Shown in pieces: positions 700-16,098 of a stretch of 24,584 bases of DNA. The notes under the pieces were generated by a model. It was not told the DNA's origin. It saw nothing but the letters and a program-made list of their open reading frames with translations, and made no database searches. Source of the DNA: a virus. The position numbers were made by a program, and so were the translations under genes. Positions within the stretch are counted from its first letter, which is position 1. Each line of letters starts with the position of its first letter. Location of the stretch: positions 53,794-78,377 of the IMG/VR virus record IMGVR_UViG_3300002242_000001. One strand, 5' to 3'.

Positions 700-2341
700 A
701 TGATTACGCAAGATTCCTGGATCCAATATTTTCCACACGAAACGCCCCGCCCTGTGCAGATTGATGCCATCAACCGCGTTTTAAACACATTTCTAAATAC
801 AAAAAAGAAGTTCGTCATCGCGGAGATGGGCACAGGTTGCGGAAAGTCTGCAATTGGTGTTACTGTTGCACGTTATTTGCGAGAGAACGTAAAAGCTCAC
901 TCTGAAGAATACTTGCCTGGAGCATATTTTGTTACTACACAAAAGATCTTACAAGATCAATACGTGAATGACTTTGGCGGCTACGGCCCAATGAGAAATA
1001 TTAAATCCTCCAGTAATTACCAGTGCAAGTTCCATACACAAAACTCCTGCTCAGAGTCCCAGGCTTTACTAAGGACTGCAGAAAGAGATAGCAAGTTTTT
1101 CAAAGTATGTTCTGGAGGATGTGTTTACCGAAAAGCAAAAGAAGCGTTCCTAAAATCCTCAGAGTCAGTTGTCAACTTTCCTTATTTTTTAACTGAAGCA
1201 ACTTATAGCGGAAAAATCACTCCAAGAAACTTTTTGGTTTTAGATGAGGTTCACAACGCTGAGGATGAATTATCAAGATTTATTGAAGTAACAATCTCTG
1301 AGCGATTCGTTAAAAATACTTTGAAGATGAAATGGCCAGGAGATCAAACACAATTCCAGTCATTTAGCTGGATTAAGAATGATTATTTCCCGAAAGTTAA
1401 AGATCGGCTAAGTCACATTGAGGGAATACTTAAAAAGTTCGATGGCTTAAAAGATAAGCTAGATGAGTTCGCTGGATTCGCCAAGCAACACGATATGCTT
1501 AAGTCTCATGTCGATAGATTGTCTACGTTTATTCGTCATTACGACAAGGAAAATTGGGTGTGTGAATTTGTTGCGCCCTTTGCCCGATCATTAGCTAAAA
1601 TCATTTTCAAGCCTGTGGATGTATCTAAGTTTGCTAATGACTACTTGTTTCGCCTAGGAAATAAAGTCTTGATGATGTCTGCTACTATCGTAAAATCATA
1701 AATCATTCTGCAAATCCCTCGGAGTACCAGAAGACAACGTAGAGTTTATCAGCACCCCATCTCCGTTCCCGACAAAAAATCGCCCTATTATTGAGCTGTT
1801 AGTTGGAAAGATGAACGCGAAAGAAATAGATAACACTCTTCCTTTGATAGCTAAAACAGTAGAAGAGATTTTAAAGATGCATCCGAATGAGAAAGGTATT
1901 ATTCACTGCCACACGTTTAAAATCGCCAAGTATCTCTGGCAGAATGTGAGCCATGACGGCGATCGCCTTCTCATTCACGACTCAAATGACCGAGAAGAAG
2001 TACTTGAAAAACACATGCATATGTCAAAGCCCACAGTGTTACTCAGCCCATCAATGGCCGAAGGTGTGGATCTCCGAGGAGACTTCTCTAGATTTCAAGT
2101 AATCTGCAAAGTACCGTTCCCTTATCTCGGGGATGAAGTAATAAAGAAGAGAATGTCCAAATGGCCTGAGTGGTATCCTACCAGGACAGCTAAAACAATC
2201 GTACAGTCAGTTGGAAGAAGCGTAAGGTCATCTGAAGATCACGCAGTTACGTATATACTGGATGAGGGCTGGAGATATTTCTACAACAAGCACCGAAATT
2301 ATTTTCCACAAGATTTCAAAGAATGTCTTCAAAGGTACTAG
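700..2341 (+). CDS. DinG/XPD-family Fe-S DNA helicase (frameshifted in this sequence)
   Basis: Superfamily 2 ATP-dependent helicase of the DinG/Rad3/XPD type, about 546 residues once a one-base frame change is corrected. Visible motifs are Walker A MGTGCGKS (43-50), four cysteines at 109, 117, 137 and 141 in the position of the XPD/DinG 4Fe-4S cluster, and Walker B DEVH (182-185). Further on come the SAT motif (MMSATI), EGVDLRG and the C-terminal QSVGRSVRS arginine-finger motif. The reading frame from 700 stops at 1699-1701, just after SAT. The frame entered from about 1694 continues with SFCKSLGVPEDNVEF and PSPFP, the expected next helicase segment, and runs to 2341. Removing one A from the AAAA run at 1692-1695 restores a single protein. 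It probably unwinds DNA or removes R-loops during phage replication or repair. No strong Shine-Dalgarno precedes 700, but a TATAAA lies at 665-670. Confidence 0.9.
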
Positions 2342-2810: not shown

Positions 2811-2825
2811 TTGGAGAACTTAATA

Positions 2826-3893
2826 ATGATTATCAACACAAATGTAGCGCTGCTTCCAGCTCTAGCTACTTCTTTTTCTACTCTGAAGGCCGCCGACGCC
2901 AATGTCTCAGGTGAGGCTTTTACCATTAACAGTTCTATGATTAACGTTGCAAAAGCATCTGGTGACTTAACTCCTGTACTCGGAACTGGCAAGTCCGAAG
3001 TAGCGGCCTCCGGCGTTTCACGATTTGCGCCAAGCCTTGATGCGCCAGTCGCTAAAGAGCAGGGTCTCGCAGTACAAGACGGATCAACAGGGTACTTCGT
3101 TTTTGCTGATGCAGCAGTCAATGTCTATGGGTTTGATGAGAAGTCAGGGATCTGGCTCCAAATAGGAAATCCAGCAGCCAAGTCAGGTTTCAACATTTCT
3201 ATGAACACTGACTACACACATGCACAGCACGGCAGTATTAACATCTCTCGTGTCTTCGTGCAAGACCCAGCATCCACTGCAACCGCTCGATCACAGTTCC
3301 GCATGGTACCGCAGAAAGGAGTTTCTGGTGCTGCCCTTGCAGTTTCTGAGACAAAATCGCAGTTTTCAAAAGACGTTGAGATCGACCAGGACTTGCAGGT
3401 GGATGGCACAATCTCTGCTACCAGCATCGATGCAGACAATCTTACAGCAAGAGCCGGCAGCGACTTGACGATTGCCCCAGGACAGTCAGGCGATGACATC
3501 ATGATTCTTTCATGGTCAGGATCCGAACATTTCAAATCAACTGATTCTGATGTGTCTTTGGGACCAATAGGTCTTGATGGGATTGCAAAGTTGAATGCGA
3601 CTAGTAATGACGTTCAACTGGGTCCAATCGGCTTAGATGGAATCTTCTTGAACATTGCCAGCAATACTGCCTCTTTTGGTAAAACAAATTCTGTGAATTT
3701 GAAAGCAGACTCCAACTTCATTTTCGCCGGCAAACCTGGCACAACTGAGAATGGTCTTTATGTTCACAAGGATCATGGCGTGTGCTTGGTATCTTCAGGT
3801 GGCAATGTGTTTGGTTTGAGAATTGATGATAGTGGTAACCTATCTACTACTTCACTTGGGAATGCTGTTTCTCTAGAAGTTCCTATGTGCTAA
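2826..3893 (+). CDS. Tail-fibre-like or virion surface structural protein
   Basis: A 355-residue protein rich in Ser, Ala, Gly, Thr and Asn, with few charged residues and predicted repeated beta strands, typical of phage fibre, fibritin or decoration proteins. The start at 2826 (MIINTNVALL) is preferred over an in-frame ATG at 2811 because TTTGGAGAA lies 6-10 bases upstream. The middle part contains VDGTISATSID-like segments, as found in trimeric fibre shafts. The motif LGPIGLDGI occurs twice, encoded at 3558-3584 and 3618-3644, giving a 20-residue repeat unit. The opposite strand is also open over part of the gene, but the encoded sequences there are low-complexity and unconvincing. A strong terminator follows. 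Specific receptor and virion position cannot be told. Confidence 0.75.
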   Translation: MIINTNVALLPALATSFSTLKAADANVSGEAFTINSSMINVAKASGDLTPVLGTGKSEVAASGVSRFAPSLDAPVAKEQGLAVQDGSTGYFVFADAAVNVYGFDEKSGIWLQIGNPAAKSGFNISMNTDYTHAQHGSINISRVFVQDPASTATARSQFRMVPQKGVSGAALAVSETKSQFSKDVEIDQDLQVDGTISATSIDADNLTARAGSDLTIAPGQSGDDIMILSWSGSEHFKSTDSDVSLGPIGLDGIAKLNATSNDVQLGPIGLDGIFLNIASNTASFGKTNSVNLKADSNFIFAGKPGTTENGLYVHKDHGVCLVSSGGNVFGLRIDDSGNLSTTSLGNAVSLEVPMC

Positions 3894-5083: not shown

Positions 5084-5602
5084 GTGAGAAACCTTCTGAT
5101 AGCAACGTTAGCATTTGCGCTACTAGGATTGGGATGGTTCGTACCGTCTGATCGCTCAGCCGAGCTTATCATCCAAGGTCACGATCATACTTGGGTTGGA
5201 AGTTATGCAAATATTAATTTTCAAATTGTGCCGCCCGAAGGTCTTCAACTAAAGGAAGACGCTCCGCTAAGAGTGAAAGTTGTTGTGACACCCAATCTAT
5301 CGACTTCTCCAGGTACTTTGCGCGCCAAAGAAGAAAATTTTATGCAGGGCGTTGCGATGTTTAACATTCTTGTCAGGGGAGAAAAGCCAGGTCTTGGCAA
5401 GGTAACAGCTGATGTCTCATACTTTCTATGCTCAGACACAATCTGTAAGAGATACACTGACACAATCAGCCATCCGGTTTACGTCAAAAAGACTAATTTT
5501 TTTATTCAGGCCTGTTTTCTTGATATGTATGCATGTTCGCTTTTAGTATTTTTAAAATCTAGCTCTCGGAGAAAATCTAATGAATCTAACTTCAATTCCT
5601 AG
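5084..5602 (+). CDS. Secreted DsbD N-terminal-like protein
   Basis: Starts at GTG 5084, preceded by GAGGA. The first about 22 residues are a hydrophobic export or anchor segment (MRNLLIATLAFALLGLGWFV). The rest is a beta-sandwich-like domain with two cysteines spaced CSDTIC near residue 120, followed by PVYVKK. This resembles the alpha domain of thiol-disulfide interchange protein DsbD, which carries a Cys pair near its end, though I can only match the pattern. It lies 9 bases after the site-2 protease, suggesting a joint function in the periplasm. The last 34 residues look unlike the domain and overlap the next gene by 23 bases. If the A5 run at 5486-5490 were A6, the protein would end at Asp-stop near 5496, right after the domain. 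That end may be the true one. Confidence 0.6.
   Translation: MRNLLIATLAFALLGLGWFVPSDRSAELIIQGHDHTWVGSYANINFQIVPPEGLQLKEDAPLRVKVVVTPNLSTSPGTLRAKEENFMQGVAMFNILVRGEKPGLGKVTADVSYFLCSDTICKRYTDTISHPVYVKKTNFFIQACFLDMYACSLLVFLKSSSRRKSNESNFNS
5520..5553 (+). promoter_or_regulatory. Promoter-like element upstream of LamG structural gene
   Basis: TTGATA at 5520-5525 is followed about 18 bases later by TAGTATTTTT. The pair parallels the one at 2780-2810 and precedes a gene with a clear ribosome-binding site (CGGAGAAAA, about 5568-5576). It lies inside the doubtful C-terminal extension of the upstream gene, which supports the view that this gene really ends near 5496. Confidence 0.4.
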
Positions 5603-7010
5603 TATCGGGGTCCATCGTGACACTGCGACTTCCACCGACCCAACGGGTCTTGAGGGCGCAGCCCCACTAAACGGTCAAACCGGGTTGTTTATCTTTTCCA
5701 GATCACCGATTCAAGTTTGGCAGCGCTCAGCTGCAGGAACCTGGTCTATCGCAGTCACTTTGACAGGTGCCGAAGGCTCCAGAAAGCACTCCATCAATTG
5801 GGGTGATCTGACACGCATCTATGTTAAGTCAACCTCTGGCTCTGACGTCACAGTTCGATTCGTGGGCCAGACAACATCCGCACCTGTCGCACAAGGTGCT
5901 GCGGTCAATACTTGGTCTGGATTGTCTGACACGCCAAACGCGTACGCAGGACACGGTGGAAAATATCCAAAGGTCAAAGCAAATGAGTCAGGAATTGAAT
6001 TCGTCGAGTCTGCCTCTGGCGCAGATGCATCTGGCAATATTACAATAGGCTCAGGTACCGACGCTGCTGGGTCTACAAACGCTCTGGCGCTTAAAGCTGG
6101 CACAGCTCCGACCTCAACAGTCGCAGATCAGGCGTTTGTTTACTCTAAACTGTACGCTCCTGAAGTGATCGCTTATTATCCTTTTAATGGAAATGACGGC
6201 GACACAGACCTAGCAACTCCGGGTTATGCAGATAATTCTGGAAATGGTCACTCGTTCACAGCTTCTGTCGGTGTTCCTTCTTTGTCATCCACTGCTCATC
6301 ATGGAAGCACGTCACTGCGCTTGGCAGGCGATCGACTCTACACTGATGATCACGCTGACTACGCATTCGGCACAGGGGATTTTACCATTATGATGTGGGT
6401 GAAGATCTGGACTATGGAGGAACCCATCGATATTCTTTATAGAACACTCGGTGCGTCAGTTGGAACCTCCACGCTTAAAATTTATGCGATGCCCTCTACC
6501 CATGCCGGAGGATACTCAGTTAAAATATTAGACGGCACGAATACTGAGGTGCTCAGGATCGATACCACCACTGCGGCTTTCGGACTCCGACAAGCTTTCA
6601 AGCACTTAGCAGTCATTAGAGAATCCGGAGTATTAAAAATCTATATGGACGGCATTATGGTGGGTTCAGCGCCATACACAACAGATATCACTGAGACCCA
6701 GCATGCTTTAGGAATGGGCTCCGGCTCCCAAGCATTTAATGGATGGGTTGACGATCTAGTCATCGCAAACGCGGCTCTCTATACGACGAATTTTACACCT
6801 CCCGTACCGTTCTCAGATTCTCAAGCAGCTTCTCTTCACGTCACCGACGGTGCCGGAAACGAGACAAAGATCTCTCCTCACAATAAAGCCGGTGAGTGGG
6901 AATATGTTTCTCGAAACAAGATTACAGGAAAATCTGTTCGAATTAACATGGAAAAGATGATTAAAAAGCTTGAAGGCTTCACAGGCGAGACGTTCATCGA
7001 AGAAGACTGA
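5580..7010 (+). CDS. Virion adhesin / tail protein with LamG-like domain
   Basis: A 476-residue structural protein. The N-terminal 100 residues form beta strands, with NGQTGLFIFS and VTVRFVGQTT segments. At about 112-145 comes the WSGLSDTPNAYAGHGGKYPKV motif, common in phage fibre and tail proteins. Residues about 195-410 form a concanavalin A/LamG-like jelly roll: IAYYPFNGN, DNSGNGH, STSLRLAG, FTIMMWVK, LKIYMDGIMVGSA and FNGWVDDLVIANAALY, the usual LamG strand signatures. The C-terminus (about 415-476) has ISPHNKAGEWEYVSRN and a charged helix KMIKKLEGFTGETFIEE, reminiscent of other phage tail proteins. LamG domains commonly bind glycans, so it may bind host surface polysaccharide. A weak hairpin terminator follows. 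Confidence 0.85.
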   Translation: MNLTSIPSIGVHRDTATSTDPTGLEGAAPLNGQTGLFIFSRSPIQVWQRSAAGTWSIAVTLTGAEGSRKHSINWGDLTRIYVKSTSGSDVTVRFVGQTTSAPVAQGAAVNTWSGLSDTPNAYAGHGGKYPKVKANESGIEFVESASGADASGNITIGSGTDAAGSTNALALKAGTAPTSTVADQAFVYSKLYAPEVIAYYPFNGNDGDTDLATPGYADNSGNGHSFTASVGVPSLSSTAHHGSTSLRLAGDRLYTDDHADYAFGTGDFTIMMWVKIWTMEEPIDILYRTLGASVGTSTLKIYAMPSTHAGGYSVKILDGTNTEVLRIDTTTAAFGLRQAFKHLAVIRESGVLKIYMDGIMVGSAPYTTDITETQHALGMGSGSQAFNGWVDDLVIANAALYTTNFTPPVPFSDSQAASLHVTDGAGNETKISPHNKAGEWEYVSRNKITGKSVRINMEKMIKKLEGFTGETFIEED

Positions 7011-7092: not shown

Positions 7093-7109
7093 AGTTGCAG
7101 GAGAAACAA

Positions 7110-10100
7110 TTGTCATTCAAGAATTTTAAAGTACCGAACCGATTTGTAGGCTTGCACGGCCACTCAGGGTTCTCAACATACGATGGCTTAGGCTATCCGG
7201 CTGATCATATTGATTTTGTTCTTGAGAATCAAATGGATGCCTGGGGCTTGACAGATCACGGCCACGGGTCAGGCCTCGCTCATGCTCACAAGCACTTTCA
7301 GAAGATGAAAAAAGCAGGTAGGAAATACCGCCAGGTTTACGGTGTTGAGTTCTATTTCGTCGAAGACTTAGATGAGTGGAAGAGACAATATGAAGGCCAT
7401 CGTGAGCGTATCAAGGCAGAGCGAGATGCAAAAAAAATCGAGTCTCTATCCACTACTGATGTCAATGTCGACAATGAAGACGAGCTCATGTCTGAGGGTC
7501 ACACGATTGAAAACGAGGACGAGACAAAGCAAGACTCTGGCGGTAAGCCTGAGTGGATGCGCAGATATCATTTGGTTGTAACTGCCCGCACGCCAAAAGG
7601 ATTAGCTAATTTATTTACGCTTGTTAAGCGCGGATTTCGAGACGGATTTTATCGATTCCCAAGAATCGATTTCAAGATGCTCAAGGAGTACGGAGAAGGC
7701 TTAAGCGTCTCATCCGCATGTGTAGGAGGAATCTTTAGTGGTCGCACATTTCAAGAATTTCCGGGTCTTTCTTTTAACGAGCTCGGGCCTGAACTCTTAG
7801 ATGATCCCGAAAAGAAAAAGCGCCTGATGTCCACGCTCGGAAATCTTACTGATAGGTTTGTCGATGCTGTCGGAGAAGAAAACTTCTTTTATGAGCTACA
7901 GTTTAACAAACTTTCAGCCCAGCATATGGTTAATCGCGCTCTGATAGAGCTTCATGACCAAACAGGAGTTAATCTTATTACGACTTGTGATTCTCATTAT
8001 CCGACTCCGAACAAGTGGGAAGCCCGAGAGCTTTATAAGAAGCTAGGCTGGATGGGCAAGGAAATGACCCCTCTGCCAGAGTTTGAAGAGCTCAAGTGCG
8101 AGCTATATCCCAAGAATGCTTCCCAAATCTGGGAGGAGTTTGAGCTTGGCTGGGATCAATACGATTTCTACAAGGGTCGAGAAGAGCTAATAAGCAATAG
8201 CATTGAACGTACCCACGATCAAGTCTGGGATCGCTATGAGGATATGTGGGTAGATTCAAAGGCTAAGCTGCCGAATTACGCTCTGCCTCAAAAGAGTCAT
8301 CCCAGTTACCCTTCTGCGCCCGATGAAACACCATTTCAGCAGCTAGCAATCAAAGTAAAGAATGCAATGATCAGCACTGGCCTAGCAGCTAAGCCTGAAT
8401 ATGTTGCTCGTGTTAAGGAAGAGCTGGACGATATCAAGTTTCTTGGGTTTGAGAATTACTTCTTGACTATGCATGACGTGTTTCACATGGCTGCGGAAAA
8501 AACCCTGTTTGGACCGGCTCGAGGTTCTGGTGGCGGTTCCCTTGTTAACTTTCTTTTAGGGTATCACCCAAATACGATCCAATTCCATATGGTCTGCTCT
8601 GGTCACGCTTCCTCGGCCGACACCGGACTTCTTGGCCAGACATCGATTCAGATGCTGGTGACCGGGATGCTTTGATCGATGCAGCCAGAGAGTTATTTGG
8701 TGAAGATGCAGTTATTCCTGTGTCTAATTTCAATACACTTAAACTCAAGTCGATTGTTAAAGATGTTGCTAAGTTTTATGATGTTCCTTTTCTAAGAGGT
8801 AAATGCTCTTACTGGACCTCTCCAGTCTGAAGTCGAGCCCCACGCTCGCGACGCCAATACTGAGAAATCTGTGTTCGTGCTTACACACGAGGACTGCATG
8901 AAATTTTCCAAGAAATACAAGGAGTTCATGGAGAAGTATCCAGATGTTGAGAAGCATGTGAGTACTTTGTTTATGGAGCAGAGATCTATTGGCCGACACG
9001 CCGGGGGTGTTCTAATTGCCGATGAGCGTGAACTTGAACAAACAATGCCGCTGATATCAGTTCGAGGTGATTTACAGACACCGTGGACTGAAGGAATGAA
9101 CTTCCGAAACTTAGAGGACAATGGTTTTATTAAGTTCGATTTCCTCGGTCTTACGCTAATGAAGGATGTGGAGAACTGCATCAAGCGCGTCTTGATAACC
9201 CAAGGAAACCCAAGTCCAACTTTCTTACAAATCAGAGATTTCTTTGACAAGCATTTAAATTGTAGGAACGTCTTGCAAGATGATCAAAAAGTCTGGCAAA
9301 ACACGTACCACAATTCAGATTTCGCCCCAGGGATATTCCAATTTACTGCCCAGGGAGCCAGAAACTTCTGTATGCAAGCCCAGCCTAGGAATATTGAGGA
9401 GCTTGCTGCTATCACAGCTATTTACCGACCAGGCCCCCTCAAAGCAAATGTTCATATCAAGTATGTCGAAGCCGGAAAAGATATTGACAGCATCATCTAT
9501 GATCACCCAGTGATTGAGAAGATTCTCGGCCCGACAAGAGGTTTCATTACTTTTCAAGAACAGTTTATGAGTCTTGCAGTTGAATTGGCAGGTTTCACCC
9601 CCGGTGAGTCTGACAAGATGAGAAAAACCTTAGTGAAGAAGTCGCTAGATACTATCGGCAAAAAAGGCTCAGAAAGAGATCAGCTACGAAAGCAATTCGT
9701 GGAAGGCGCCGAACGACTTCACGAGCTGGATCCTAAGATTACACATGCACTTTTTGACAAGATTGAGTTCTTCTCACTGTACGGATTTAACAAGTCACAC
9801 GCTGTTGCCTACGCTATTGACAGCTATTACGCCGCCTGGTTGTACACCTACTATCCCGACCAGTGGATCGCAACAGTTCTAGAATCTGAGAATAATTCTC
9901 CTCAAGGTCTGTCCAAAGCTATTCGTGAATCTAAGGCTCTTGGGTGTGAATTCGTTCCAGCAGATATTAACTACTCTGGAGATGAGTGGAACTACAATAC
10001 CGATCGACAGGCGTTTATCCCGCCTCTCTCTTCTATTAAGGGTCTAGGCGACAAGGCAATGGATGAAATTCTTGCTTCTCGACCCTTCAAGAGTTTAAAT

Positions 10101-11042
10101 GACTTGTTTTATGATGAAAGAGGAGAGTGGAGACACTCAAAAGTCAATAAGACATGCTTTGAAGCCTTGTGTCAAATCGAAGCCTTTTCTTCTCTCGAGG
10201 AATTCCGAGAAGGAAAGCTGGAAAATCACCGACAGCTTCTACAGATAATTTCTGACAACTATGAAAATATTCGAAAGGGCCGAGCTGCTGAGTCAAAACT
10301 CCGTGAGCGCCTAGCTAGGATTGGTGAGCAAATCAAGGATGAGTTTGACAAAGCCTTAAGAGTCTATGAAAAAACCAAGATGAACGACCTCCTTGACCAG
10401 GCAAACCAGCACATTTACAACTGCAGCATTGTAGATTGGTGCTACAGCGAACATGCAGCAGACTTACTCAAGGATATCGGGCATCCAAACCACAAGAGAC
10501 AGCTCCAGATTGACAAGTGCTTTGATAGACTACAAAACTATTATGAGCGCCGTGATAAGATTTCTTCTAGGATCGACGATCTTTTTGACATCGACTCCGC
10601 GATGCTTGGAGTTTCACACATCAAGGACTGGTCTCGAGATGAGAAGATAGTATTGTACCAGCAAATAACGTCAGCTATTAATAACGAGCTAGTTTTTCCC
10701 GAAGAAGTAATGAAACGAATTGAAAAAGCAGATGTAAGGTCTGTCTGTGAAATGACTGGGGGAGACAAAGGAGTGGCGTGGGGATGTGCAGCTGAGATTG
10801 TCAAGAAAAAGACTAAGAACGGCAAAGACTTTTATCGCATGAGAATGATGGATGATCAGAATCGTACATCCTGGCTTCGGGTTTGGGGCAAGTTTTTTGA
10901 TTGGGGTGAAGAACGAGGGCAAAAGATTTATTATGAACCTAAACCTTTTACATACTGGCTTATGGAGACAGAAGTTGATCCTAACTGGGGTGCTTCGACT
11001 GCCTCGTGGAAGATGAGAAAGATTCCACTCTATGATGATTAA
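7110..11042 (+). CDS. dnaE: DNA polymerase III alpha subunit, DnaE type with PHP domain (two frame breaks)
   Basis: Replicative family C DNA polymerase, about 1310 residues when corrected. The TTG start at 7110 follows AGGAG. The N-terminal PHP domain has HGH (16-18), TDHG (about 48-51) and later DSHYPTP. The palm has GPARGSGGGS (about 469), then PDIDSD (about 510-515) and FDFLGL (D about 677), giving the three catalytic aspartates. A finger region with GFNKSHAVAYA and a C-terminal OB-like part follow. Between finger and OB domain lies a long charged, coiled-coil-like stretch (about 1030-1180). The frame changes twice. After LLLG-type FLLG at 8559-8561 a -1 shift gives PKYDPIPYGLLWSRFL. Near 8792-8798 a +1 shift restores VNALTGPLQSEVEPHARDA. 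One G added to GGG at 8559-8561 and one A removed at 8794-8795 yield an uninterrupted polymerase. All catalytic residues are present. Confidence 0.95.
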
Positions 11043-11226
11043 GGCTGGAGATCTAGTTAGAGTAACTAAAACTGCAGTTCAAGACAGTCGGTTCATCAAG
11101 AAGGTCGGGGTCTTAGTTAGTGACAATGGTGTCGATGACTGCGGCCATCCAGAAGTGTTCATTCTGGTAGAAGGTAATATAATATGTGTATATCCGGACG
11201 GGTATGAGCTAGTGGAGAAGATTTGA
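11032..11226 (+). CDS. Small SH3-like protein
   Basis: A 64-residue beta-rich protein whose ATG overlaps the polymerase stop by 11 bases; ATG 11035 is an equally good start. GDLVRVTK, KVGVLVSDNG and a closing YPDGYELVEK give the pattern of a small SH3-like barrel, often seen as filler proteins in large phages. It ends in a TGA that overlaps the TTG start of the next gene. Function unknown. Confidence 0.7.
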   Translation: MMIKAGDLVRVTKTAVQDSRFIKKVGVLVSDNGVDDCGHPEVFILVEGNIICVYPDGYELVEKI

Positions 11227-12132
11227 TTACGTTTCCCGTGAATAAAATTGCCCTCGAAGGAACAGATCTCAGCGGCAAAACAACACTGTACAATGAGATA
11301 CATAAAAAATCAGGATTCAGATGGAACATGGATGATCGCTCGGGGCTGTCTATGTGTGTTTATTCCAGCCTTTACAATCGAGATGATTTCTATGCTAGGA
11401 AAAATCTTGAATTTAGAGATGTCAAATCTAAACAACCAGTTCCTTCTTTTATACCCAGCTTTAAATGTTCTTCAAGACAGGTTCTTAAGTCGAGGTGATG
11501 AAATACAGGATATCAATTCTCTTCATGAGCTTTATGTTCTTTTTGGCAAAGAGTTCGAAAAGTATTGTATGCTACCTAATTTTCATGTATTCCAGACGGG
11601 AAGCGCAAAAGATCAGGCAAGAGAGATCGTCAGACGGTTGCGACAGATGGAAAATATGACTGCAGAGAATATCGGAAACTATGTGCATGAGTTTGTAAAG
11701 TTTCAACCTGGCAAAGAATCAAATACAGTGCAGTTCCAATTCTACGATGATGGAACTTTTTCTACTGCTTCCGAGGCTATTATGAATACTCGTGGCGAGG
11801 AAGAGTATTATAGTAGTATTAAGCAGGCTTTCTTACAAAAGATTCAAGATGAAATCGAGGGAAGAAACCACTATAGCCGGAAAGAAACAATAGAATCCAG
11901 AAGATTTGTTTATGCAGGCGAAGAGTGTATTTCTTTCATTCAAGCGATAGTTAGAAACGACCTATTAGATGTGCATGCAGTGTTTAGGTCTTCAGACACA
12001 GGAAATAAGACTGGTACTGATATTCAATTCGTCCACTATTTAGGCAGAGAGGCTGCAAGAATGCTCAGATTGAACTCTAGAGATTATCGAGCCCGCTTCC
12101 GGTTTAACATAAACAGTGCACACATTGTTTAA
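11223..12132 (+). CDS. dNMP kinase fused to thymidylate synthase-family domain, probably dCMP-acting (frameshifted)
   Basis: About 302 residues after correction. The TTG start at 11223 follows GTGGAGAAG. The N-terminal part is a P-loop nucleotide kinase, with EGTDLSGKTT at about 12-21 and DRFLSRGDE later. The frame changes near 11421-11431, where removing one A gives NNQFLLLYPALNVLQDRF in frame. The C-terminal part matches the core of the thymidylate synthase family by spacing: Cys236, Gln five residues on, Arg256-Ser-Ser-Asp259 (20 and 23 residues after the Cys, as in C146, R166, D169 of E. coli ThyA), and a final SAH. The residue aligned with ThyA Asn177 is Asp (GTDI, codon at 12019). In the family, Asp here marks dCMP-specific enzymes such as T4 dCMP hydroxymethylase. 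The folate-binding N-terminus is reduced and the ThyA Tyr209 equivalent is Val, so catalysis is unproven. Confidence 0.75.
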
Positions 12133-13561: not shown

Positions 13562-15508
13562 ATGGGTGGAATCGCATTCAAAGATGATGAGGGAAATTCT
13601 CTAGCTAGCGAAGTTGAACGAAAATACGTCGTTCCAACCCTTGAGGATTTATTCCAAAATCACTTAGAACCAGCAGGGGTAACAGCATACGAACCTGTCG
13701 GCTCAACCGGAAAGAAGTCTCTAGCAGGAGACTTAGATATTGCAGTTCATTTTAATGGTGACGACCCAAAACAAGTAAAGCAACTACTGTTTAGGAATCT
13801 TGCTTCTACGCTTGACCCTGACATGATTAAAGTAATCGGTCCCAATCTTACTATTCTTTACCCGATTAAAGACGACCCACAAAGCCGCCTCGCCCAGGTT
13901 GACTTGATGATCGCTGCAGATCTAACAGGGACAGCTTGGCTTATGTCCGGAACGGGGGATGAGGGAATAAAAGGAATATTCAGAAATATTATGCTTTCTC
14001 ATATTGCAGCCGAGAGAAGCAAACAGATGGACCCCCGTGAAAAGATTACAGTTGCCACACCAGGCGGCCTAGGAAAACTCCAGCTTGATCCTAGTTTAGA
14101 TCCAAGCCTTCCTAAGAATAAAAGAAAGTTTAAGCTTGTCGGCAGCCGAACTACTAATCCTCAAGAAATTTTAAAAGGATTAGGGATTAGCGCATCCCCT
14201 GCAGAGGTGTCCACGTTTGATGGTCTCGTTGATGTAATGACACAAGATCCTGAATTGAAAAGCATGCTCGTTACATTCAGTGACTATTTAAGCCAGCGAG
14301 CAGGAACATTACAACACCCACAGTTCCAGCGAGTATTGTCGTACGTGGATAAATCAATGAGTGAAAACGTAATTAGAAAGACGATCAGATTAATAATGGA
14401 GAAAGAGATGAAGAAATCTCAAATAAATGAAAAGCTTGTCCAAATAGGAGACGAAGAGCTTTATGATCTAACAGACGATAATCTTGAAGCACTTCGGACG
14501 TTTATTCGCGCTGAGCTTAAGGTTAACCAGTATGATCCCGACGAATCCCGACAAGGATATATTGATGCGATCGATGCAGTGAGAGGTGACGCACAGTTCT
14601 CAGATGCAATAGGTAAATACCCAGCGGATTATAAGAAGCTGGTTCTCGATTACTTAATGAAGATTGAAGACGGGCCTGAGAAGATCGCCCCAATGCTGTT
14701 TTCTCTCTCTGCTGGAAATTCATCACCAGTAGACATCAAACCGCAGTTTTTAGACATACTTCACTACAATGAAGGGCAAGGTCTCGGTCGAGGCGAACTT
14801 TTAACACCGCTTCTTTACGATAAGTCTTCTTGGGTCGGAGGTGCATCAGCTACTCACGATGTGGATATCGGAGATCAAGCCTGGGAAATTAAGCATCACA
14901 GATCTTTCAACGAACCTTTCGTTTTTGGCGGTGGCGCAAAATCTTTCTTTAGATCCCCCAATGCATTAGCTAAAGCTATATCTGACACGGGATACGACGT
15001 CAGCCAATTACAGACAATGGGAAGAGATGAGAGCCTAAAGGCAATCAAGGATATTGTTGACAATTACAAGCCCGTTTTAGAAGGTCAGCCCATCGATTCT
15101 GTTGGAAAGATGCTTTATCTCTTGGACGCAGTTGCTCGAGAACATGTTCTTCCTCACGGTGAAGCAGGAGTTCTGCTGTACCAGTCTAAATCAGCCGCTG
15201 GCTCTCCAACAAAGACAAGATTCGTTGATAAGGATGATCTTCGTTTTTACGCTTTCGGTGGAAGAAAGACAGGAAGATATCTTCTATACGCACCCGACCA
15301 GATCGAGCCTCCACGAGAAGCAGCATTCGGAGCAGCTTTATTTGACGAAGAAGCCGAAGAGGAAAAAGCAGAACCAGAAGCAGCCGACACCCCTGACCTG
15401 CCTGAAGAATCTCAAGAAGCCGAAGTAGAAGAGGAATCTGAGGAAGAGAATCTAAATGAGTCCTCACAAAATCGATGGCAACTTTTAGCAGGCATAGAAA
15501 ATGTCTAA
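13562..15508 (+). CDS. Large protein with nucleotidyltransferase-like N-terminus and PD-(D/E)XK-like region
   Basis: A 648-residue protein with a GGAG site. The N-terminal 120 residues show a polymerase-beta-type nucleotidyltransferase pattern: GSTGKKSLAGDLDI (47-60, with D57 and D59) and AQVDLMIAA (D114) as the third acidic ligand. A helical middle region (150-370) follows. Residues about 405-450 read GRGELL, HDVDIGDQAWEIKHH, giving E412, D433/D435 and E442-x-K444. That spacing resembles PD-(D/E)XK nuclease folds. The C-terminus is a long Glu-rich acidic tail (about 590-630) followed by ENLNESS and NRWQLLAGIE. I do not recognise a named family. The two fold suggestions rest on motif spacing only. 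It overlaps the next gene by 8 bases, and both may act together or be virion-packaged. Confidence 0.6.
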   Translation: MGGIAFKDDEGNSLASEVERKYVVPTLEDLFQNHLEPAGVTAYEPVGSTGKKSLAGDLDIAVHFNGDDPKQVKQLLFRNLASTLDPDMIKVIGPNLTILYPIKDDPQSRLAQVDLMIAADLTGTAWLMSGTGDEGIKGIFRNIMLSHIAAERSKQMDPREKITVATPGGLGKLQLDPSLDPSLPKNKRKFKLVGSRTTNPQEILKGLGISASPAEVSTFDGLVDVMTQDPELKSMLVTFSDYLSQRAGTLQHPQFQRVLSYVDKSMSENVIRKTIRLIMEKEMKKSQINEKLVQIGDEELYDLTDDNLEALRTFIRAELKVNQYDPDESRQGYIDAIDAVRGDAQFSDAIGKYPADYKKLVLDYLMKIEDGPEKIAPMLFSLSAGNSSPVDIKPQFLDILHYNEGQGLGRGELLTPLLYDKSSWVGGASATHDVDIGDQAWEIKHHRSFNEPFVFGGGAKSFFRSPNALAKAISDTGYDVSQLQTMGRDESLKAIKDIVDNYKPVLEGQPIDSVGKMLYLLDAVAREHVLPHGEAGVLLYQSKSAAGSPTKTRFVDKDDLRFYAFGGRKTGRYLLYAPDQIEPPREAAFGAALFDEEAEEEKAEPEAADTPDLPEESQEAEVEEESEEENLNESSQNRWQLLAGIENV

Positions 15509-16098
15509 TATGAAGATTTTAATGGAAGGGTGGAGAACCTTTCTAAATGAGCAAGATGATGACCAGTCGTTTTATTATCACTTGTCACCTGTTAAATTTG
15601 AGCAATTCACCCAGCAGCTCAAGCCGTCGCACATAGCCTCAGAGCCTGGCTTTCACTTCGGGACCAAGAAAACTGCATTAATAGTAGCAGATAAGCTTAG
15701 AAAAGAAGGCAGGGTAAAATCAGGCGATGTGGTCTACCTTTATAAAGTAAATCTTAGTATGACCAACCCCCTAACGAATGCCTGAAAACAGAATGGGATC
15801 CTGGGGTGTCACATCTATTGTTAACGAGATGTTTGAGGGTGAAACTTCATTTTCCCCTACAGACGACCAGCTTGATGAGTTCTATGAAGATGTGATTACG
15901 ACACCCGCTGGTGAGAACTTAAAAGACATGATGTTTGAACCCGACTTAGAAATAAAAGAATTCGTCAGCTGGTTTAATGACCAGGGTTACGACTCAATTG
16001 AGTATGACAATACTTTTGAAGGCGGCGGCACTTCATATGTCGTATTTAAACCAAGTCAAGTTAGCATTATTGACGTTGAGGAATATGAAGTTCCTTAG
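15501..16098 (+). CDS. ADP-ribosyltransferase-like protein (frameshifted)
   Basis: About 198 residues when a single-base frame change near 15769-15777 is corrected. The first frame ends in TGA at 15783-15785. The second frame continues PENRMGSWGVTSIVNEMFEG to a stop at 16096-16098. Removing one A near 15771-15772 gives NPLRMPENRMG, which reads naturally. The fold pattern is that of phage ADP-ribosyltransferase-like proteins: YHLS, then GFHFGTKKTALIVAD, a strand VVYLYKVNL-NPL, and the final GYDSIEYDNTFEGGGTSYVVF followed by PSQ. The N-terminus MKILMEGWRTFLNEQ looks like a short amphipathic peptide ending LNE. The family link is by pattern. Catalysis and substrate are unknown. T4 packages ADP-ribosyltransferases in its head, which is a possible parallel. 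Confidence 0.6.

Follow-up and report, generated by a model that had tools for sequence, protein, structure and literature searches.

The window, i.e. the whole stretch of 24,584 nucleotides analysed here, forms the end of a 78-kb viral record encoding Portal_T4, Peptidase_S77 (E 1e-23) and Gp23 (E 1e-63). The call of the open reading frame at 13562-15508 on the plus strand was reproduced. It starts with ATG and codes for 648 residues. The locus comprises the following features:

13562-15508, plus strand: 648-residue fusion protein with a PolX-like nucleotidyltransferase (NTase), a helical junction, a PD-(D/E)XK-like region, a Glu-rich linker and a scaffold-type C-terminal tag (sequence analysis)
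13562-14251, plus strand: family-X-polymerase-like palm and thumb domain, residues 1-230, with MGGxAF start (alignment of 34 sequences, model, Foldseek, VIA)
13730-13732, 13736-13738 and 13901-13903, plus strand: codons of the metal triad D57, D59 and D114 (alignment of 34 sequences)
14312-14446, plus strand: divergent helical junction, residues 251-295, matching the C-terminal end of the stand-alone L020/L021 proteins
14756-14962, plus strand: 100% conserved block, residues 399-467, with G-x-G-E412, D433-x-D435 and E442-x-K444, a PD-(D/E)XK-like set (orthologue alignment)
15338-15448, plus strand: Glu-rich, fast-evolving linker, residues about 593-629 (orthologue alignment)
15449-15505, plus strand: C-terminal tag NLNE|SSQNRWQLLAGIENV, residues 630-648, with an (L/I)xE site of the prohead-protease type (tag scans)
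15501-16098, plus strand: ADP-ribosyltransferase-like (ART-PolyVal-like) gene, in two parts (15501-15785 and 15778-16098) because of a frameshift (ORF and relative comparison)
15510-15551, plus strand: N-terminal ART leader MKILMEGWRTFLNE of the capsid-leader type (leader pattern scan)

Orthologues of the 648-residue protein occur in at least seven other IMG/VR contigs, with 70-73% identity over the whole length and a similar gene order around them (Pol III alpha, kinase-like, epimerase, 648-residue gene, IMP dehydrogenase, amidase, thymidine kinase). About three of the orthologues are distinct. In the orthologue comparison, synonymous sites approach saturation along most of the gene, with an amino acid identity of 58-76%. 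Residues 399-467 exhibit no amino acid difference at all, with about 50% of the synonymous sites changed. The reading frame is real, conserved and under purifying selection. All residues named in the preliminary description, which had been made from the sequence alone, are present and invariant among the orthologues (GSTGKK..AGDLDI at 47-60, D114, E412, D433/D435 and E442-x-K444), and the Glu-rich tail it reported was also found. The conservation of these residues goes beyond chance. Scans of the protein against Pfam and PHROGs gave nothing usable, and a sequence search of the PDB returned no match. With family profiles the PDB yielded chance-level matches only, e.g. tektin and LRRK2, and a tblastn match in a Lak phage, which falls within a DNA adenine methylase ORF, was judged a chance match as well. 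A model of the whole protein, built with four orthologues, reached a pLDDT of 43.

Several genes of the record are split by frameshifts, namely those for a DinG-like helicase, Pol III alpha, the kinase-like protein, the ART and the scaffold (window 700-2341, 7095-11042, 11223-12132 and 15501-16098; L034 at about 6890). Since Pol III alpha and the kinase-like gene are intact in the relatives L026 and L030, and the ART in L030 only, indel errors in the assembly are suggested. The gene at 7095-11042 codes for a DNA polymerase III alpha of the bacterial type (PHP, fingers and HHH domains) in a phage with a T4-type head. Two uncharacterised proteins among the metabolic genes (window 5580-7010 and 2811-3893) look like structural or adhesin-type phage proteins.

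For the N-terminal domain, direct profile searches against Pfam and PHROGs gave nothing usable, and the Pfam palm family PF14792 had no match in G000. An iterated search led to stand-alone relatives, among them L020/L021 (45-47% identity), Agrobacterium phage Atu_ph07 and Sinorhizobium phage Phosso, and an alignment of six sequences extended the set to 379 IMG/VR contigs. In an alignment of 34 diverse phage relatives, down to about 21% identity, D57, D59 and D114 are invariant, and the motifs GSTGxK..SGD(L/I)D, PI and Q-x-D-x-M vary little or not at all. The Pfam family matched by most members is DNA_pol_B_thumb (PF14791), with eight of the 34, all sub-threshold. Built with this alignment, a model of residues 1-280 reached a pLDDT of 91.4. 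A Foldseek search of the PDB with the N-domain model was headed by DNA polymerases lambda, mu and beta (E 3e-6), and VIA aligned 180 residues with Z 10.6, pairing 7-223 of the model with 139-338 of pol beta, a stretch that comprises palm and thumb but neither the lyase nor the fingers domain. The absence of a structural match from the VIA list was not counted as evidence. Against a viral library the model matched best with unnamed phage proteins and with Atu_ph07, and next with giant-virus PolX.

The N-terminal domain is therefore firmly placed in the polymerase-beta superfamily, as the preliminary description had proposed from the metal triad, and its predicted structure is specifically family-X-polymerase-like. 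The structure prediction and fold search which that description had suggested for the N-terminal part led to a confident model and to the palm and thumb of PolX. Similar to pol beta, lambda and mu and to viral minimal PolX (PMC5330486), the protein has a predicted palm and thumb, the metal triad and the SGDxD signature. In contrast to these polymerases it contains no lyase or fingers domain, gives no match to the Pfam palm profile, is fused to another domain and bears a capsid-type tag. The domain belongs to a large, mostly unannotated phage family of 379 IMG/VR contigs. The term "undescribed" used earlier holds for the pair of domains.

Directly downstream of the NTase, Atu_ph07 carries an array of paralogous genes coding for about 250-360 residues each (L009 7582-11759; AUZ94875-AUZ94871). 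The products each start with M(R/K)..QLxE, with LxE at residue 8, and several contain an LYRG/VYRG motif. Pfam gives the array no identity, and an assignment of these paralogues as ARTs was not confirmed by it.

The partners of the NTase point towards polynucleotide ends. In most marine relatives the domain continues into a C-terminal KxDG domain, which is Pfam DUF6267 / phrog_455 and in one relative matches Pfam RNA_ligase (E 7e-5). The stand-alone NTase adjoins a ligase-like gene in Atu_ph07, Phosso, L020/L021, L101 and L117. DUF6267 / phrog_455 of cyanophages corresponds to the ligase-like partner of the marine NTases. Cyanophages possess it without the NTase, beside genes for cytidylyltransferases, a class found in virions, whereas the window protein contains no such domain. 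The pair of NTase and ligase has the appearance of an ancestral theme. The window clade has a different, nuclease-like C-terminal part in place of the ligase-like domain, and the divergent junction at residues 251-295 may be the scar of this fusion. No ligase was detected in the window clade, the contigs of which are fragments.

Among the relatives, the ligases are as similar to RNA ligases as to DNA ligases. One alternative is a repair of RNA, with the N-domain replacing lost nucleotides on tRNAs that RNases of the host defence have cut, and the C-domain trimming RNA ends. Such a role resembles the partnership of RlaP NTases with RNA ligases in jumbo phages, for which tRNA restoration was predicted (PMC7824862); in both cases an NTase of the pol-beta superfamily is linked to ligase-like genes. 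However, with E values allowed up to 10, the RlaP profile PF10127 matched neither G000 nor the record of L005, and membership of the NTase family in RlaP was rejected on this ground. Atu_ph07 moreover carries a separate true RlaP at 154.9 kb. Family X DNA polymerases lead the fold search, and the window clade combines its NTase with a nuclease-like domain and shows no ligase within its fragments. Taken together, RNA repair is rather unlikely, though it deserves more weight than the other functional alternatives discussed below.

For the C-terminal region neither profile, sequence nor structure searches gave a match, and the full-length model is of low confidence there (pLDDT 21-40). Relatives of the domain outside the clade were found neither in viral contigs nor in GTDB genomes nor in 22 NTase-bearing records, and a search with the pattern GQGLGRGE returned only the window clade and chance reading frames. 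As no relative of this part is detectable outside the clade, it is the conserved motif block that speaks for a nuclease. E412, D433, D435, E442 and K444 all lie within this single block of 69 residues with 100% conservation, and they follow the catalytic order E...D...(D/E)-x-K of PD-(D/E)XK enzymes. The spacing D435-x6-E442-x-K444 is plausible in comparison with MutH-like enzymes. The block might also adopt another fold, with its acidic and lysine residues agreeing with PD-(D/E)XK by chance; the missing matches and the low pLDDT speak for such a coincidence, the length and complete conservation of the block, the correct order of the residues and their spacing against it. We regard a chance agreement as a serious but less probable option. 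Residues of about 296-578 are likely a metal-dependent nuclease of the PD-(D/E)XK type, and the nuclease assignment of the preliminary description is retained as putative.

The tail of the protein ends with LNESSQNRWQLLAGI, which is nearly the C-terminus of the scaffold of the same phage, LNESSESNRWALLAGI. The full C-terminus reads NLNESSQNRWQLLAGIENV, and the phage's own scaffold gene, frameshifted in the assembly, ends with ASLNESSESNRWALLAGINK. The local alignment of the two tails (LNESSESNRWALLAGINK in the scaffold, LNESSQNRWQLLAGIENV in the 648-residue protein) scored 58, whereas 2000 shuffles reached at most 49. In the 78-kb record the tag matched only the scaffold and the 648-residue protein, and the control gave 0 matches. 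Among viral contigs, 54 of 56 in-frame matches to NRWQxLAGI lie at most six residues from the C-terminus of the ORF, and at the 27 loci with a Gp23 match the tagged ORF adjoins the capsid gene, i.e. it takes the position of the scaffold. For the most part, the tag is borne by the scaffold gene that precedes the capsid gene. In L175 (83-2653) three consecutive genes end in a scaffold-type tag (NRWQVLAGI, NRWQLLAGM, DRWQVLAGI), one of them being HAD-like. These three genes are located directly upstream of neck/tail-type genes. The tag of the window protein also includes a site of the protease type, LNE|S. The scaffold of cyanophage S-CREM2 has no LAGI tag, so not every T4-like phage has it.

A tag identical in type to that of the scaffold might merely bring the enzyme to the prohead core for a task in assembly or on the DNA being packaged, with no need for delivery to the next host. 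T4-like phages do use a virion-associated head-completion nuclease of the restriction endonuclease fold, gp4 (PMC7824862). The gene studied here is, however, not part of the head cluster; metabolic genes surround it, and its neighbour is an ART with a capsid leader. In cyanophages, such leaders are a mark of cargo enzymes detected in virions. A role confined to head morphogenesis consequently appears improbable.

Signals that suggest packaging also occur in the relatives. The window protein itself starts with M-GG, without the N-terminal (L/I)xE leader of the marine relatives. In the leader-bearing relatives a short peptide precedes the conserved GG, and each of the 29 distinct leaders closes with (L/I)xE, the middle residue being variable. 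(L/I)xE is the cleavage motif of the T4 gp21 type (PMC9026906, PMC9958956). A pattern related to the start of the ART-like gene, E(N/D/H/Y)WRxFLNE, was found on unrelated proteins at most 25 residues from the N-terminus in 48 of 55 distinct matches. Its bearers include HAD, P-loop and nucleotidylyltransferase-like proteins, fold names that were read from motifs and not from profiles, as well as many unknown proteins. One bearer, L184, is a member of the NTase family with the leader MKLLLENWRKFLNE|GGNVF. A modular form, M-K-L-L-x-ENWRxFLNE, occurs on many unrelated enzymes of marine phages (L183-L262; e.g. L193, L197, L218, L184) and might allow capsid cargo to be recognised from sequence.

The published virion proteome of S-CREM2 (PMC10665884, Table 3) was used as an external check of the leaders. 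F(L/M)xE leaders are present there on a SAM hydrolase, a Cas9-like nuclease, an APH-like kinase, a cytidylyltransferase and one small protein, and all four non-lysis enzymes detected in the virion carry them. In numbers, five of 28 non-structural or unknown virion proteins have the motif compared to three of 167 undetected proteins (Fisher P = 0.0018), a P value that is optimistic because the motif was defined after some of those proteins had been viewed. The authors of the proteome also warn of a possible carry-over of abundant cell proteins (PMC10665884). A virion-detected hypothetical protein near the cytidylyltransferase, gp156 (L327 9513-10226), contains the NTase-like signature GGNANYNYTPYSDIDLH.

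The closest known counterparts are the internal proteins IPI-III and the ART Alt of T4, whose N-terminal capsid targeting sequences (CTS) are cut by gp21 (PMC9026906, PMC9958956). The T4-type head with an S77 prohead protease, a short terminal (L/I)xE peptide and an ART as companion cargo are in common. In contrast to T4, the signal of the window protein is C-terminal and copies the C-terminus of the scaffold, and the cargo is a PolX-like/nuclease-like fusion. As a targeting signal, this C-terminal tag is less well established than the N-terminal CTS of T4. Nevertheless, packaging of the 648-residue protein in the capsid of this uncultured phage has strong sequence support.

The companion gene fits cargo of this type. 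The overlapping ART-like gene mentioned in the preliminary description is present, but in the window it is split into two ORFs by a frameshift. In L030 it forms one ORF of 198 residues (8752-9348), which matches ART-PolyVal with E 1.6e-6 and 29.3 bits, below the cut-off of 31.2, and in L026 the gene is absent. Because of this absence and of the split in the window, the ART would be accessory cargo and not an obligate partner. The companion recalls ART-PolyVal (PF18760) and the polyvalent proteins, multidomain proteins that are injected with the phage DNA (PMC5512222). Unlike those, it does not code for a giant polyvalent protein but is a separate tagged gene, below the Pfam cut-off and frameshifted in the window.

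With such a neighbour, the protein could in principle be an injected effector for anti-defence or host takeover, its NTase modifying host proteins or making or degrading nucleotide signals and its nuclease attacking host DNA. The capsid leader of the ART-like gene suits this idea, and polyvalent injected proteins combine such domains (PMC5512222, PMC7824862). On the other side, the PolX palm and thumb and the ligase partners point towards polynucleotide ends and away from protein NMPylation or second messengers, leaving an effector of this kind with little probability. Since the relatives pair the NTase domain with ligases, nucleic-acid repair is indicated rather than anti-defence, and the anti-defence function suggested earlier was not upheld as such. 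The accompanying suspicion of an injected system gains strong sequence support from the scaffold-type tail, the protease sites and the ART leader.

On balance we slightly favour the view that this T4-like phage packages the 648-residue protein in its capsid and ejects it, and that the protein is an enzyme which processes nucleic-acid ends. Residues 1-230, a minimal palm-thumb nucleotidyltransferase of the PolX type, would add nucleotides to nucleic acid or fill gaps in it, and the PD-(D/E)XK-type nuclease of residues about 296-578 would trim ends. Loading of the enzyme into the prohead core may be due to its acidic linker and 19 terminal residues, which mimic the C-terminus of the scaffold; the prohead protease would then cut at LNE|S, so that the enzyme can exit together with the DNA. 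Once inside the cell, the enzyme could trim, fill or mend ends, either those of the phage genome that has just entered or those of RNA that the host defence has damaged. That a PolX-like transferase has a ligase or a nuclease as partner suggests trimming, filling and sealing of ends early in infection. Packaging, cleavage, the nuclease fold, the catalytic activities, the substrate (DNA rather than RNA) and the role are what we infer in this explanation; for the substrate, the fold favours DNA and the ligase type of some relatives RNA.

A more general and clearly more tentative proposal is that large T4-like phages possess a capsid-delivered repair kit. It would consist of a PolX-like enzyme with a ligase or a nuclease depending on the lineage, exchangeable loading peptides, one of them copied from the scaffold, and release by the protease, and the genome would be mended before phage genes are expressed.

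Capsid targeting peptides of T4 were defined on a few internal proteins. The present data suggest an address system in marine T4-like phages, in which two kinds of signal occur on many unrelated enzymes, namely leaders at the N-terminus, of the ENWRxFLNE and further (L/I)xE types, and a C-terminal tag derived from the scaffold (NRWxxLAGI). If this holds true, the injected proteome of uncultured phages would be readable from sequence. For the NTase family with its 379 contigs and for DUF6267, a testable function is thereby proposed, namely that they repair or process the ends of nucleic acids just as infection begins.
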